A stretch of DNA of 36,567 bases from Nitrospinae bacterium RIFCSPHIGHO2_02_FULL_39_82 (GTDB lineage: Bacteria > Nitrospinota > Nitrospinia > UBA9942), in NCBI GenBank assembly GCA_001804915.1, contig MHDI01000026.1:1-36567 (forward strand), written 5' to 3'. Under the pieces are notes generated by a model, which made no database searches, had not been told where the DNA came from, and was given only the letters and a program-made list of their open reading frames with translations. Made by a program: the position numbers and the translations under genes. Shown one piece after another: positions 5,944-32,308 of this stretch; the stretch's first letter is position 1, and every line of letters starts with the position of its first letter.

Positions 5944-6034
5944 GTGGAAAGCAATGAGGAAAAAACTTATTACTCATTGCTCATTGCTTATTGTTTGTTG
6001 CTCATTGCTTGTTGTTTGTTGCTCATTGCTTATT
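5937..6034. repeat. Heptamer-array cassette A (inverted arms)
   Basis: gcaatga gtggaaa gcaatga ggaaaaa, then ten consecutive 7-mers: acttatt actcatt gctcatt gcttatt gtttgtt gctcatt gcttgtt gtttgtt gctcatt gcttatt. Confidence 0.9.
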
Positions 6035-6039
6035 TTATT

Positions 6040-7581
6040 ATGTCATCTGAAATAATAGTTAATACTAATAGTTGGGAGACACGGGTAGCACTTTTAGAAA
6101 ATGGAGTTGTATCCGAACTCTATATTGAAAGGAAGAAGGACGAAGGTATTGTTGGTAATGTCTATAAAGGAAGGGTTGTGAAGATTCTCCCCGGGATGCA
6201 GGTGGCATTTGTGGATATAGGACTGGAGAAATCAGGTTTTCTTTATGTATCAGATATAAATCTACCAGACATAATAGGAGAATACGAAGAGATAGCAGGT
6301 AAAGAAGTATCTTTTCCAGATGAAGAGTCAACACAACCCGGCGAGGAGGTGATTTCGGAAGAATTCTTCCAGAGACCTCCGATTGAAGAATTACTGCAGG
6401 AGGGGCAGGAGATTCTGGTTCAGATTTCAAAGAACCCAATAGGGAATAAGGGGGCAAGGATTACATCTTATATCACACTGCCGGGACGGTATTTAGTATT
6501 TATGCCATCCGTAAATCAGATCGGGGTCTCCAGAAGGATAGATGATGAATCAGAAAGGAATAGACTCAAAAAATTACTTTTAGAGCTAAAGCCTCCGGGT
6601 TCTGGTTTCATTGTAAGGACTGCCAGTGAAGGCAGGGATAAAGATGAGTTTATAGCTGATATTGAGTTTCTGACGAAACTCTGGAATGACATAAAACAAA
6701 AGGCTGATAAGGTATCCGCACCCTTTCTTATCAATCAGGACCTTAACCTCATATTCAGAGTAATAAGAGACCTTTTTACAAAAGATGTTGACAGAATGGT
6801 GATAGATTCCCAGGAAGAATATGAAAGGTGTGTAAGATTTGCAGATTCCTATATGCCGGGCTTGAAATCACAAATTGAATTATATCCCGGGAAAGACCCC
6901 ATTTTTGATACCTATGGAATAGATATAGAAATAGAAAGGGCATTGGGCAGAAAGATATGGTTAAAATCCGGTGGTTATATAGTTATTGACCAGACAGAGG
7001 CACTAACCGCAGTAGATGTAAATACAGGAAAATTCGTAGGCAAGAGAAATCCCGAAGAGACCATTTTAAAAACCAATTTAGAGGCATTAAAAGAAATTGT
7101 TTATCAACTCCGTCTGAGAAACATAGGTGGTTTAATAATCATAGATTTTATAGATATGGAGAAAGAGGATAGTAAAGAGAAGGTATTTCATGCACTTGAG
7201 CAGGCATTGAAGACTGACAGGTCAAGGACAAAGATAATGAAAATATCTGAATTTGGTCTTGTGGAAATGACAAGGAAAAGGGTCAGAGATTCTTTAAGCC
7301 AAACACTCTGCCAGCCTTGTTTCTACTGCGAAGGGAGGGGAAATATAAAATCGCCTACCACTATATGTTATGAAATATTCCGGGAGATACAAAGGGTTAC
7401 AAATACCTCTCCCGCAAAGAGAAAGGTCCTCCTGAATGTCCCCCCTGTAATTGCGGATATGCTTTTTGATGAAGAGAGCCGCTATATAGATAGACTGGAG
7501 AATGATTTACAGGTGAAGATAGTTGTAAAAGCAGATTATGACCTTCATCAGGAGCAATATGAGATAACAGTATTGGCTTGA
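6040..7581 (+). CDS. rng: Ribonuclease E/G family protein
   Basis: MSSEIIVNTNSWETRVALLENGVVSELYIER, GNVYKGRVVKILPGMQVAFVDIGLEKSGFLY (S1), GGYIVIDQTEALTAVDVNTGKFVG, RNIGGLIIIDFIDM, CQPCFYCEGRG zinc-link region. Start placed at 6040 because upstream codons fall in the heptamer array. Confidence 0.93.
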   Translation: MSSEIIVNTNSWETRVALLENGVVSELYIERKKDEGIVGNVYKGRVVKILPGMQVAFVDIGLEKSGFLYVSDINLPDIIGEYEEIAGKEVSFPDEESTQPGEEVISEEFFQRPPIEELLQEGQEILVQISKNPIGNKGARITSYITLPGRYLVFMPSVNQIGVSRRIDDESERNRLKKLLLELKPPGSGFIVRTASEGRDKDEFIADIEFLTKLWNDIKQKADKVSAPFLINQDLNLIFRVIRDLFTKDVDRMVIDSQEEYERCVRFADSYMPGLKSQIELYPGKDPIFDTYGIDIEIERALGRKIWLKSGGYIVIDQTEALTAVDVNTGKFVGKRNPEETILKTNLEALKEIVYQLRLRNIGGLIIIDFIDMEKEDSKEKVFHALEQALKTDRSRTKIMKISEFGLVEMTRKRVRDSLSQTLCQPCFYCEGRGNIKSPTTICYEIFREIQRVTNTSPAKRKVLLNVPPVIADMLFDEESRYIDRLENDLQVKIVVKADYDLHQEQYEITVLA

Positions 7582-10095: not shown

Positions 10096-11007
10096 ATGCA
10101 AAAGAAGATTTTACTTATTATCCTGCTTTTTCAATTTTCAGCCGTCGGTTGTTCTTCTGATAAGACTACAGATATATTAAAACAAGATATAGCCCATCTG
10201 AAGACCCAGATGGTTGATACCCAGAAAGGTAATACTGATGCTGAAATGAGAGTGTCCAGTATTGAAAATAGATTGCAGAATTTTGAAGAAAAAGTAAAAG
10301 ATTTGGAAAACCAGGTCTTCAACCTGTCTGCAAAGGTTGAGGAAGGAATAGGAATAGAAATACCTGCAGAGGTAGAAGCAGAAAAACCCTCACCTGAACC
10401 TGAGGTAAAAGAATTACCCTCCACTCAGAACACTTCAAAAGAACCGTTTTCGCCTCAACCGGAGATAAAAGAACTCCCCCCTCTTCAGCCTGAGGTAAAA
10501 GAATTACCTCCACCTCCTAAAAAAGAGGAGATTGCAAAAGCAGAGTCAAAACCACCTGAAGAAATTAAAGTGGCTGTAACAGAGGAAAAGAAAGGGGAGG
10601 ATGAATTAAAAAGGTTAAAGGCTCTGCTTCCTGAAGAGCTTTATAAAAATGCCTATGATAATTTTGTTTTCGGAGAATATGATAAAGCCATTGTTGCCTT
10701 TAAGGTATTTCTGGATAGCCAGTCAAAGAGTGAACTGGCTGACAATTCTCAATACTGGATAGGCGAATGTTATTATGCCAAAAAGGATTATAAAACCGCC
10801 TTATCTGAATTTCAAAATGTTATACAAAAATATCCAAATGGAAATAAGGTTCCTGATGCTATGTTAAAAATTGGATATACATATTATGCACTTGGTGATA
10901 AAAAATCTGCCCTGAATGAGTTAAATGACCTGATAAAGAAATTTCCTAAAAAAACAGTCTCAAGATTAGCAAAAGAAAAAATAAAGGCTATTGAGAAAGG
11001 AAAATGA
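10096..11007 (+). CDS. ybgF: YbgF/CpoB-like tol-pal-associated TPR lipoprotein
   Basis: Lipobox-like FSAVGC, coiled coil, Pro-rich linker with repeated PEVKELP, C-terminal TPRs (YDNFVFGEYDKAIVAFKVFLDSQSKSELADNSQYWIGECYYAKKDYKTALSEFQNVIQKYPNGNKVPDAMLKIGYTYYALGD). Confidence 0.85.
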   Translation: MQKKILLIILLFQFSAVGCSSDKTTDILKQDIAHLKTQMVDTQKGNTDAEMRVSSIENRLQNFEEKVKDLENQVFNLSAKVEEGIGIEIPAEVEAEKPSPEPEVKELPSTQNTSKEPFSPQPEIKELPPLQPEVKELPPPPKKEEIAKAESKPPEEIKVAVTEEKKGEDELKRLKALLPEELYKNAYDNFVFGEYDKAIVAFKVFLDSQSKSELADNSQYWIGECYYAKKDYKTALSEFQNVIQKYPNGNKVPDAMLKIGYTYYALGDKKSALNELNDLIKKFPKKTVSRLAKEKIKAIEKGK

Positions 11008-12161
11008 AGCAAGGAACAAAAAGTAAGGGACAAGATATAAAGGGGAAGGGGGTTTTTTATCCTATCTTCTGCTCTCTGCTTCTTGTTTCGTGCTTCTTGA
11101 CCTCTTTTGCCGAAGACCTCCCTCAAAAAGAATCTACAGAAACCCCAAAGGTGCATATTGTCAAAAAGGGGGATACCCTCTGGGATATATCAAAGAAATA
11201 TCTCAATAATCCTTTTAAATGGCACGATATCTGGGATAAAAATAAATTTATAACTAATCCAGACCTCATATATCCGGGGAACAATATTGCAATACCAGGT
11301 ATCTTCGATAAGGTCGAGATTGAAAAAGAAATCCAAATTGAAGCAGAGCCTGAAATCATTCCAGAATTACCAGAAGAAAAAATAGAGAAAATAGAGGCTG
11401 AAGTGGATGAGGACAAGATACCTGAACTCCCTCAGGTAACCCTCCAACCCCCACCTCCGGCAAAGATTCCACTAACTACGGAAGTGGTTATTGCAACCTC
11501 TGGCTATATAATTCCACAGGAAATGGAGAAAGGGGTAGTGTTTGACTCACCTGAACCAAGAACTATCTTTGGGAGAGGAGACATGGTTTACATAAATATT
11601 GGAGAAAAAAGTGGGGCAAAGGTAGGCAGCAGATTCACAGCTTATAAACCTCTGAGAGTGGTTACGCATCCTGTTAAAGGTAATACAGTCGGTGTTTTAA
11701 TAGAGATACTTGGTGAACTGGAAATAAAAGAGGTCAGGGATGATAACTCAACAGCAAGCATAATCAAATCATATAAAGCTATAGAACTCGGAGACAAATT
11801 ACAGGAGAGGGAAGATATAATTGTTCCTATGATAGACCCTGCCGCAAAGGTAGAGCCAAAGGATATGAGGGGTTATATCATAGAAGCTAAAGAACAAAAG
11901 ACTACCGTTGGAACAGAAGATATTGTCTATATTGATTTAGGAAGGGAGACAGGGGTATCTGCTGGTGACAGATTTACTATATTTAAAAGTGGAGAGGAGA
12001 AAGAAAAAAAGATAAAAAGGGGTGAGGTGATAAAGCTTCCAAAGGTTGTTATAGGAAGTCTTCAGGTAATAACCCCAATGGAAAACACATCCACAGCCAT
12101 AATAAGGGACACCAGAAAAGAGATTGTAATTGGAGAAATGATTGAATATGAAAAAAGGTAA
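11004..12161 (+). CDS. LysM-domain envelope protein
   Basis: VHIVKKGDTLWDISKKYLNNPFKWHDIWDKNKFITNPDLIYPGNNIAIP is a LysM. ATGA overlap with the preceding stop. Confidence 0.88.
   Translation: MKQGTKSKGQDIKGKGVFYPIFCSLLLVSCFLTSFAEDLPQKESTETPKVHIVKKGDTLWDISKKYLNNPFKWHDIWDKNKFITNPDLIYPGNNIAIPGIFDKVEIEKEIQIEAEPEIIPELPEEKIEKIEAEVDEDKIPELPQVTLQPPPPAKIPLTTEVVIATSGYIIPQEMEKGVVFDSPEPRTIFGRGDMVYINIGEKSGAKVGSRFTAYKPLRVVTHPVKGNTVGVLIEILGELEIKEVRDDNSTASIIKSYKAIELGDKLQEREDIIVPMIDPAAKVEPKDMRGYIIEAKEQKTTVGTEDIVYIDLGRETGVSAGDRFTIFKSGEEKEKKIKRGEVIKLPKVVIGSLQVITPMENTSTAIIRDTRKEIVIGEMIEYEKR
11006..11103. repeat. Heptamer-array cassette H (inverted arms) encoding the LysM protein N-terminus
   Basis: gaagcaa ggaacaa aaagtaa gggacaa gatataa ... 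ctatctt ctgctct ctgcttc ttgtttc gtgcttc ttgacct, all in one 7-nt phase. Confidence 0.75.
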
Positions 12162-15557: not shown

Positions 15558-15676
15558 AAAATGCAAAATGCAAAATGCAAAATGCAAAATTTAAATGAAG
15601 GAAGTAAAGGCTTCTTATTTTTTATTCCTTACTTCTTGCTTCTTACTTCTTACTTCTTACTTCTGGCTTCTGGCTG
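15558..15676. repeat. Heptamer-array cassette G spanning the pilQ start and signal peptide
   Basis: aaaatgc x4, then in the same 7-nt phase cttactt cttgctt cttactt cttactt cttactt ctggctt ctggctg. Confidence 0.9.
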
Positions 15677-17771: not shown

Positions 17772-17777
17772 AATAAA

Positions 17778-17856
17778 GCAATGAGCAACGAGCAATGAGT
17801 TCGAAGGAGAATTATTTCTGTACTCATTACTCATTACTCATTGCTCATTGCTAAAT
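17778..17856. repeat. Heptamer-array cassette B (inverted arms)
   Basis: gcaatga gcaacga gcaatga ... actcatt actcatt actcatt gctcatt gctaaat; same unit as cassette A. Confidence 0.9.
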
Positions 17857-17857
17857 C

Positions 17858-18934
17858 ATGGAGGTTGTTAATGTAGGGCTTAAGGAAAGGAGTTATTCAA
17901 TTTATATAGATAGGGGACTCCTTACAGAAGCCGGAAAGAGATTGAGTAATATAATTGCAGGTAAAAAGATTGCCATAATTACAAACCCTACTGTAAATAA
18001 AATTTACGGCTCTATTTTGAAAAACTCTTTCAAAGGGGCAGATATTAAAATTCATCTTACAGAGATACCTGACGGGGAGAAATATAAGACATTAGAAACT
18101 GCTGTTAAAATATATGATTGGTTAACAGATATAAAAATAGAGAGACAATCTTCATTAATTGCACTTGGTGGCGGGGTCATAGGCGATATAACAGGATTTG
18201 TTGCAGCAACCTATTTAAGAGGTGTTCCATATATGCAGATTCCCACCACCTTGCTTGCACAGGTGGACAGCAGTATTGGTGGTAAGACAGCAGTAAATCA
18301 TCCAAAAGGAAAGAATCTGATAGGGGCTTTTTATCAGCCAAGGGTTGTGTTCATTGATATAGATACACTTAAGACTCTGCCAAAAGAGGAGATTTTATGC
18401 GGTGTGGCAGAAATTATAAAATACGGTATTATCAGGGATGGAGATTTCTTTGAATACTTGGAAGGCAACATAAAAAAACTGATTAACCTTGAAGAAAAGG
18501 CGCTGATATATTCAATAAAAAAAGCCTGTGAGATAAAGGCAGATGTAGTATCAAGAGATGAAAGGGAAACAGGTCTAAGGGCAGCCTTAAATTTTGGTCA
18601 TACTATAGGACATGCCATTGAATCACTTACAGATTATAAGAAATACAGACACGGTGAGGCAATTGCCATTGGGATGGTGTATGCTGCACGATTATCTTTG
18701 GAAAAGGGATTATGTAGTAAAGATGACTGTGATAGGGTAATCAATCTTATAAAAAATGCAGGGTTACCAACTGCAATAAGCGATTTAGATACAGATACCA
18801 TTGTAGAATCTCTCTACTTAGATAAAAAGGTAAAGGGAGAAAAAATAAGATTTGTGCTGATGAACGGGATAGGTGCTGTTGGGATATACAGTGATATATC
18901 TCATGAATTAATAAAGCAGACTATCTTGAACTAA
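17858..18934 (+). CDS. aroB: 3-dehydroquinate synthase
   Basis: ALGGGVIGDITGFVAATYLRGVPYMQIPTTLLAQVDSSIGGKTAVNHPKGKNLIGAFYQP and RAALNFGHTIGHAIE. Confidence 0.97.
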   Translation: MEVVNVGLKERSYSIYIDRGLLTEAGKRLSNIIAGKKIAIITNPTVNKIYGSILKNSFKGADIKIHLTEIPDGEKYKTLETAVKIYDWLTDIKIERQSSLIALGGGVIGDITGFVAATYLRGVPYMQIPTTLLAQVDSSIGGKTAVNHPKGKNLIGAFYQPRVVFIDIDTLKTLPKEEILCGVAEIIKYGIIRDGDFFEYLEGNIKKLINLEEKALIYSIKKACEIKADVVSRDERETGLRAALNFGHTIGHAIESLTDYKKYRHGEAIAIGMVYAARLSLEKGLCSKDDCDRVINLIKNAGLPTAISDLDTDTIVESLYLDKKVKGEKIRFVLMNGIGAVGIYSDISHELIKQTILN

Positions 18935-25022: not shown

Positions 25023-25030
25023 AACCTCCG

Positions 25031-25105
25031 TAACTACAAACCAACCACTAACAACTAACCACTATTATTGGTTGTAAGTTGTAAGTTGTAGGTTGTAAGT
25101 TTTCT
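25031..25105. repeat. Heptamer-array cassette E (inverted arms) filling the rny-ymdB gap
   Basis: taactac aaaccaa ccactaa caactaa ccactat ... gttgtaa gttgtaa gttgtag gttgtaa gttttct. Confidence 0.85.
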
Positions 25106-27648: not shown

Positions 27649-27868
27649 AATTAACAGATAATCCCCCATCTTTATGCCGTATAGAAAGGATATTTTGAAC
27701 CTGGTAAACCAGGGTGGGAACCATACGGGTTACTTTAGGTTTCCTGCATACGACAGGCTTACACACCATAACCACTAATTAGCTCCCTTTTTTATTGGTG
27801 TTGGATCAAAAATTCCTCTCTACCTCGTACATGACAGGGGATTAAACCTTCCAGTCTCCTATCTATTA
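27649..27868 (-). ncRNA. ssrS: Probable 6S RNA
   Basis: Located between zapA and fau, the common 6S position. Pairings: aatagata/tatctgtt, aatcccc/ggggatt, tgtcatgta/tatacggca. 3'-side hairpin ACCCTGGTTTACCAGGTTCA followed by ACGGCA resembles known 6S RNAs. Upstream -35 TTGATA and AT-rich -10. Confidence 0.72.
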
Positions 27869-31120: not shown

Positions 31121-32230
31121 ATGAACGAAAAATATATGAGGCAGGCTATAGAGCTCGCCCTTAAAGCAAAAGGGGAAACAAGCCCAAATCCAATGGTTGG
31201 GGCTGTAATTATAAAAGAAGGTAAGGTCATTGGAGAGGGCTACCATAAAAAGGCAGGAACCCCTCATGCGGAAATTAATGCCCTTAATGCAGCAGGTAAA
31301 AATGCTAAAGGTGGAATAATGTATGTTAATCTCGAACCCTGTTGCCATCAGGGGAGGACCCCTCCATGCACAAAGTCGCTGATAAAGAGTGGTTTAAAAA
31401 GGGTAGTTGTTGGTATGACTGACCCTAATCCACTTGTATCGGGTAAAGGAATAAAGGAACTAAAAGAGGGGGAGGTTCAGGTTTCAGCAGGGCTTTTAGA
31501 GAAAGAATGTAAAAGACTCAATGAGGTTTATATTAAATACATAACTACGGGAATGCCTTTCGTTCTTTTAAAGGTTGCTATGAGCCTCGACGGAAAGATA
31601 GCCACATGCTCAAGGGAGTCTAAGTGGATAACAGGTAAGTCTTCAAGAGAGCAGGTTCACAAGTTAAGAGATGAGGTTGATGCAGTAATGGTAGGAATAG
31701 GGACGATATTACAGGATAATCCAAACCTCACTGTTGCTTTAAAAAGAAAGAGGGGAAAGAACCCGATTAGGATAATTGTTGACAGCAATTTAAGGATTCC
31801 CCTTGATGCAAATGTACTTAAAGTTTCTTCTCGTACCAGCAGGAGTTCCAAACCGGAAATCATAATCGCCACCACAAAGAGGGCGGATACAAAAAAATTA
31901 AACTCCCTGATGGAAAAGGGGATTGATGTTATGATAACGGAAGATGATAACCAGAGGGTCAATCTTTCAAAATTAATGTATGAACTTGGAAAACGGGGAA
32001 TTACCAATTTACTTATAGAGGGTGGGTCCGAACTTAATTCATCTGCCTTGAAATCGGGTATAGTTGACAAAGTAATATTTTTTATTGCCCCGCGGATTAT
32101 AGGTGGAAAGGATGGTATATCTGCTGTAGGGGGGAAAGGGATTGAAAGGTTGGAAGATTCTTTGAATATCAGTGAAGTAACTTTGGATAAAATTGGGAGT
32201 GATATTGTTGTTGAAGGATACCTGAAATGA
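31121..32230 (+). CDS. ribD: Bifunctional riboflavin deaminase/reductase RibD
   Basis: SPNPMVGAVIIKEGKVIGEGYHKKAGTPHAEINAL, VNLEPCCHQGRTPPCTKSLIKSGLKRVVVGMTDPNPLVSGKGI, VAMSLDGKIAT. Confidence 0.97.
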   Translation: MNEKYMRQAIELALKAKGETSPNPMVGAVIIKEGKVIGEGYHKKAGTPHAEINALNAAGKNAKGGIMYVNLEPCCHQGRTPPCTKSLIKSGLKRVVVGMTDPNPLVSGKGIKELKEGEVQVSAGLLEKECKRLNEVYIKYITTGMPFVLLKVAMSLDGKIATCSRESKWITGKSSREQVHKLRDEVDAVMVGIGTILQDNPNLTVALKRKRGKNPIRIIVDSNLRIPLDANVLKVSSRTSRSSKPEIIIATTKRADTKKLNSLMEKGIDVMITEDDNQRVNLSKLMYELGKRGITNLLIEGGSELNSSALKSGIVDKVIFFIAPRIIGGKDGISAVGGKGIERLEDSLNISEVTLDKIGSDIVVEGYLK

Positions 32231-32308
32231 GTTAGGAGTTATGAGTTATGAGGAAAATCCCGAAACCTTTCCCCTCTAAACTCCAAACTCAATAACTCAA
32301 TACTTAAA
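32231..32308. repeat. Heptamer-array cassette C (inverted arms) filling the ribD-ribE gap
   Basis: gttagga gttatga gttatga ggaaaat ... cctctaa actccaa actcaat a actcaat acttaaa. Confidence 0.85.

Follow-up and report, generated by a model that had tools for sequence, protein, structure and literature searches.

The window (the whole 36,567-nucleotide stretch analysed) is contig C26 of a 1.59 Mb genome in 107 contigs, here called G000. In it, a gene encoding a ybgF/CpoB-like TPR protein (10096..11007, +), an open reading frame with Pfam TPR_6/YfiO matches, is followed on the same strand by a gene encoding a LysM/FlgT_C-like protein (11004-12161, +). The two overlap through an ATGA junction (11004..11007, +), where the LysM ATG begins at 11004 and the ybgF stop TGA occupies 11005-11007, as the initial annotation had read it. 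The LysM protein has a predicted signal peptide (11004..11111, +) with cleavage at SFA/ED. The mature part (11112..12161, +) contains a LysM domain (Pfam PF01476, about 11154-11297, +) and an FlgT_C-like domain (Pfam PF16538, about 11580-11780, +).

The leader, MKQGTKSKGQDIKGKGVFYPIFCSLLLVSCFLTSFA/EDLPQK, can be divided into MKQGTKSKGQDIKGKG-VFYP-IFCSLLLVSCFLTSFA/ED. A degenerate purine heptamer array of six units (11006..11047, +; gaagcaa ggaacaa aaagtaa gggacaa gatataa aggggaa) encodes the basic n-region, and a degenerate pyrimidine array of six units (11062..11103, +; ctatctt ctgctct ctgcttc ttgtttc gtgcttc ttgacct) encodes the Leu/Cys/Phe-rich h-region. The heptamers of both arms were found exactly where the initial annotation had placed them. 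Its claim that the leader lies inside a heptamer cassette holds for the n- and h-regions; the c-region falls outside the array, and the repeat is degenerate. As expected of a Sec signal peptide of the SPase I type, the leader has a basic n-region (MKQGTKSKGQDIKGKG), an uncharged hydrophobic h-region of at least 10 residues (IFCSLLLVSCFLTSF, by a home-made rule) and small residues at -3/-1 in a conserved position (SFA/ED in G000, SA/EE in the relatives G003 and G005, LA/EE in G001). This c-region, outside the array, is the conserved part of the leader. A lipoprotein processed by SPase II was considered and rejected: the LVSC lipobox of G000 is missing from both G003 and G005, and its cysteine is not conserved. 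Past the array, G000 offers a single in-frame start candidate, a GTG located at the LysM domain. Translation from the conserved start must cross the array to reach that domain, which supports the leader being real.

The periodicity at this locus is modest and, taken by itself, suggestive. Against dinucleotide shuffles, lag-7 matches were 20/41 in the purine arm (P=0.053) and 24/44 in the pyrimidine arm (P=0.011; best window 18/28). The whole leader has 47/101 matches (P<=5e-4), under a shuffle in which the two arms, opposite in composition, are mixed; compared with synonymous recoding of the same peptide its periodicity gave P=0.009. The two arms are also related by reverse complementarity (P=0.018), with an RNA fold z of -1.8. 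The arrays can be regarded as secure because relatives have clear, different arrays at the same junction and because period 7 is outstanding genome-wide.

G001, G003 and G005 represent other genera of the same family as G000. The ybgF-LysM synteny is common to these three and to G002, and in all four the LysM ATG is kept at the same position at the end of ybgF. Between the shared ATG and the mature LysM protein, a different heptamer array was found in each genus compared, always in frame. The unit is AGAAGTC in G001, and in G003 and G005 the arrays consist of AGAATAC/AGAATGC followed by TTCTGGC. These family arrays are perfect, unlike the degenerate one of G000. TTCTGGC is present in 8 copies in G003 vs 5 in G005, and AGAATRC in 4 vs 1; the 42-nt difference corresponds to three units per arm, so that the frame is kept twice. 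The LysM leader of G002 has no array, hence the array is not needed at this locus. In the more distant G006-G012, the two genes are separate and the leaders ordinary. By the initial annotation, close relatives with the same leader but no nucleotide periodicity would have refuted its reading. Three of the four informative same-family relatives carry different arrays, and G002 carries none.

Arrays of this kind are found throughout the genome. In about 1.27 Mb of the 1.59 Mb of G000, we counted 232 period-7 segments and 155 of period 14, a multiple of 7, vs 45 of period 8 and at most 19 for other short periods. Periods 8, 9 and 10 are mildly enriched (45, 19 and 16 segments vs 0-6 at periods 5, 6, 11 and 13), so the process that makes the arrays is not strictly confined to 7. 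About half of the period-7 segments are intergenic, with 99 arrays between co-directional genes vs 6 between convergent or divergent ones (P=1e-8 by intergenic length). Arrays were also seen within long genes, apparently in frame (71 internal segments; L051:2872-6906, L042:17393-19789, L053:5174-7327). There are 87 different heptamer units in G000, with no dominant one of the TAACTGA form, and single mismatches connect them into a denser network than random units form. This number of units rules out, as the sole origin, one fixed repeat family that disseminated in the manner of a mobile element. An exact probe of three AGAAGTC units was present in all six genomes of the window's family and, among the 71 genomes searched elsewhere in the phylum, in 1; the reversed control pattern was in none of the genomes searched. 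A search of Rfam gave no match at the heptamer cassettes.

With 7 and 3 sharing no common factor, all three frames of a stop-free heptamer array are read as one and the same heptapeptide. For example, AAGAAGC yields KKQEARS and its complement GCTTCTT yields ASCFLLL, AAGAGGC yields KRQEARG and its complement ASCLLPL, and TTCTGGC yields FWLLASG. AATGAGC contains a stop, and its complement yields AHCSLLI. An inverted pair with the purine arm before the pyrimidine arm has that order on both strands, and therefore reads basic-then-hydrophobic whichever strand is read. The inverted pairs in leaders comprise 13 purine-first and 0 pyrimidine-first cases. Purine/pyrimidine bias is stronger in leader arrays than in intergenic ones (P=1.5e-8). 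All frames are open in 33/39 leader arrays vs 28/78 intergenic arrays, a comparison that is partly circular, since leaders were defined by their open frame.

A leader counted as heptamer-periodic if some window in it reached 18/28 or more lag-7 matches, and the 1025 G000 genes were sorted with a simple home-made signal-peptide rule. By this measure, 30 of 202 predicted signal-peptide genes have periodic leaders vs 7 of 599 cytosolic genes (P=4e-13), about a 13-fold difference; the count for multi-spanning membrane proteins is 5/119 (P=0.003 vs signal-peptide genes). In the cytosolic genes, arrays lie instead upstream of the start (65/599). At a stricter threshold, signal-peptide leaders of G000 had no enrichment at other periods. 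The same script run on 266 kb of the relative G004 gave 20/59 signal-peptide vs 1/109 cytosolic genes, where the rate, though not the contrast, is inflated because the contigs were chosen partly for carrying arrays. In 1.34 Mb of unrelated bacteria it gave 0/149 and 0/687, respectively. The mature parts of array-leader proteins belong, by Pfam, to envelope families: PilQ and GspD secretins, SurA, OmpH/Skp, OEP, LptE, TolB, cytochromes c, SLT and GNA1162. Genes and signal peptides were called by home-made rules, and long open arrays can yield spurious N-terminal extensions; among the 30 there is one clear false positive, the glycosyltransferase L078. The initial annotation would also have been refuted had array-encoded leaders been no more frequent than expected; the genome search placed them far above the cytosolic rate. 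Its pairing of a purine arm with a basic n-region and a pyrimidine arm with a Leu-rich h-region is recurrent and statistically strong in G000 and the relative.

Two further groups were noticed in this search. In two type IV-like prepilin genes of G004 (RGFTLIELL and RGFTMVELL; L266:11538-12556), the leader DNA 5' of the prepilin cleavage site is likewise heptamer-periodic. PD40 beta-propeller genes at L125:82-8146 and L265:3715-13715, in G000 and G004, have an identical composite leader, RRQKTEDRSQTSCLRRLKPTATHCSLLIAHC, which suggests copying between paralogues.

Leaders of several exported proteins could be compared across the family. Within the window, the leader of the PilQ secretin lipoprotein (15561..15674, +) is made of an AAAATGC array followed by a CTTCTTA/TTCTGGC array and ends in the lipobox LASGC. 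PilQ array leaders occur in G000, G001, G003 and G004, with differing units but every one ending in lipobox SGC, and SurA array leaders occur in G000, G001, G002 and G004. For both proteins, then, most family members have arrays whose units differ. The Skp leader is ordinary in G001-G005, of the type MKNLIAVVLSVFFLFGT...AESLKIGY, and in G000 it is MRTLKNKLQVTSSKFQVIFLASCILHLTSSISFAESLKIGY, encoded by a strong array. The G000 array lies between a GGGGATTTATGAG start context shared with G003 and an unchanged mature N-terminus. As judged from these flanks, an ordinary Skp leader is replaced by an array in G000.

The explanation that we favor, and hold as a whole to be very probable, is that lineage-specific heptamer arrays occupy intra-operon junctions and that an array read in frame ahead of an exported protein supplies a basic-then-hydrophobic leader and is retained. 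Under that same judgment, the LysM leader would be a real, translated Sec-type signal peptide with n- and h-regions encoded by a pair of heptanucleotide arrays, one among dozens of array leaders in the lineage, and conventional conservation in the LysM protein would be limited to the cleavage region and the mature protein. Heptamer arrays, often as purine-first, pyrimidine-second inverted pairs, would build up at co-directional gene junctions, that is, in transcribed inter-cistronic DNA, presumably through slippage or template switching. Array sequence 5' of an exported protein could then serve as, or replace, a loosely constrained leader and drive export. Copy number would drift in three-unit steps (21 bp, 7 residues) with the frame kept, and selection may filter solely for an open frame and hydropathy. 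A stronger version, which we hold only tentatively, would have the inverted purine/pyrimidine cassettes generate export signals throughout the lineage. Some active process, be it slippage, template switching or an enzyme, would keep making or moving them at operon junctions, and signal peptides would be continually created and replaced, with Skp as the case in view, because a stop-free cassette reads basic-then-hydrophobic in any frame and on either strand.

A rather doubtful alternative, differing from the favored explanation mainly in emphasis, is that the arrays are neutral debris tolerated in unconstrained sequence, with signal peptides merely the least constrained coding segment, to which arrays add nothing specific. 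The presence of arrays between genes and inside some of them, and the free replacement of array sequence between genera, would fit this reading. Leader arrays nevertheless differ from intergenic ones in the extremity and order of their purine/pyrimidine bias, and in PilQ, SurA and Skp the entire n- and h-regions are array-encoded, so that the array is the functional segment. It is also conceivable, if unlikely, that the cassette functions mainly as a regulatory hairpin, of RNA or DNA, where two genes meet and that signal-peptide coding is incidental. Some inverted cassettes do form strong hairpins (z -7.3 and -7.1, the latter for AGCAATG/CATTGCT between pilQ and aroB, 17777..17849, +), intergenic arrays are nearly all between co-directional genes, and the precedents in Geobacter and Beggiatoaceae discussed below were proposed as regulatory. 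The LysM and PilQ leaders, however, fold weakly (z -1.8 and -0.5), which makes a purely structural role less likely for them, and in-frame heptad conservation with lipobox or AXA sites at the array end points to the peptide.

Since the repeat unit is indivisible by 3, lies inside the 5' coding region and varies in copy number between relatives, the arrays might instead be phase-variable contingency loci like those of Neisseria opa; slipped-strand mispairing of the heptamers would then shift the frame and turn exported proteins ON and OFF. This we consider improbable. Our search found no credible exported gene with an out-of-frame array leader, the downstream genes in such cases being only cytosolic (the consensus of a metagenome-assembled genome masks within-population variation), which leaves phase variation unsupported. 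The host genes are also of the housekeeping kind (SurA, PilQ, Skp, LptE, TolB), and the degeneracy of many arrays should reduce slippage. Least probable by far is chance low complexity, by which any Lys-rich-then-Leu-rich leader appears weakly 7-periodic. The arm-level P values at the LysM locus, 0.05 and 0.01, would agree with it, but as a general explanation it is refuted by the perfect arrays at the same junction in relatives, the 0/149 periodic leaders of the control bacteria by the same measure, and the result of synonymous recoding.

By analogy, the nearest precedent for array leaders is the leader-coding CTCTT repeat of Neisseria opa, used for phase variation (PMC3960869). The likeness lies in a short repeat with a period coprime to 3 inside the leader-coding 5' region, and the opa repeat is, moreover, pyrimidine. 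Whereas the opa repeats switch the phase of a single adhesin family (PMC3960869), here the period is 7, purine arms occur alongside pyrimidine ones, the exported proteins concerned are unrelated, of the housekeeping kind and number in the dozens, and no OFF alleles were seen. The TAACTGA direct repeats of Beggiatoaceae, Cyanobacteria and Bacteroidetes, read as regulatory, are likewise genome-wide heptamers concentrated at gene starts with indels in 7-nt steps (PMC4679880). That system differs in having one fixed heptamer, against the 87 units of G000, and in being almost wholly intergenic, upstream of the start codon; signal peptides are not mentioned (PMC4679880). Heptanucleotide and octanucleotide tandem elements of Geobacter metallireducens, proposed as regulator or RNA elements, form families of 4-5 tandem heptamers within and between genes, some described as looping between strands, but were not proposed as signal-peptide coding (PMC2700814). 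The aaTRs of Borgs are fast-evolving repeats that enter coding sequence and are enriched in signal-peptide proteins, with coding units divisible by 3 that form disordered regions (PMC9879509); the units here are of 7, not divisible by 3, and form the signal peptide itself. In the open-licence papers that we searched, which were not an exhaustive set, we found no description of signal peptides encoded by arrays across a genome.

Judging from the sequences compared, repeat arrays in this lineage may provide raw material for protein export signals. They offer a concrete, testable route for the birth and replacement of signal peptides from simple repeats with a period coprime to 3 and purine- or pyrimidine-rich arms, and extend what was a single-gene curiosity of a pathogen (opa) to about 15% of predicted signal-peptide genes in an uncultured, groundwater-type lineage that is probably Nitrospinota-affiliated. 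A natural comparative series of array-encoded leaders is thereby on offer. Caution is needed with gene callers, which will trim or extend starts at heptamer arrays.

Elsewhere in the window, intergenic heptamer cassettes lie at 5950-6044, 17777-17868, 25028-25101 and 32227-32308. The one upstream of RNase G (5950..6044, +), where the real start is probably ATG 6040, is probably 5'-untranslated and not leader-coding, so arrays at gene starts are not always leaders. Several cassettes, such as those of RNase G and aroB, stop just 5' of an ATG without an evident Shine-Dalgarno sequence. The window also carries a 6S RNA at 27659-27843 on the minus strand (Rfam RF00013, 93 bits).
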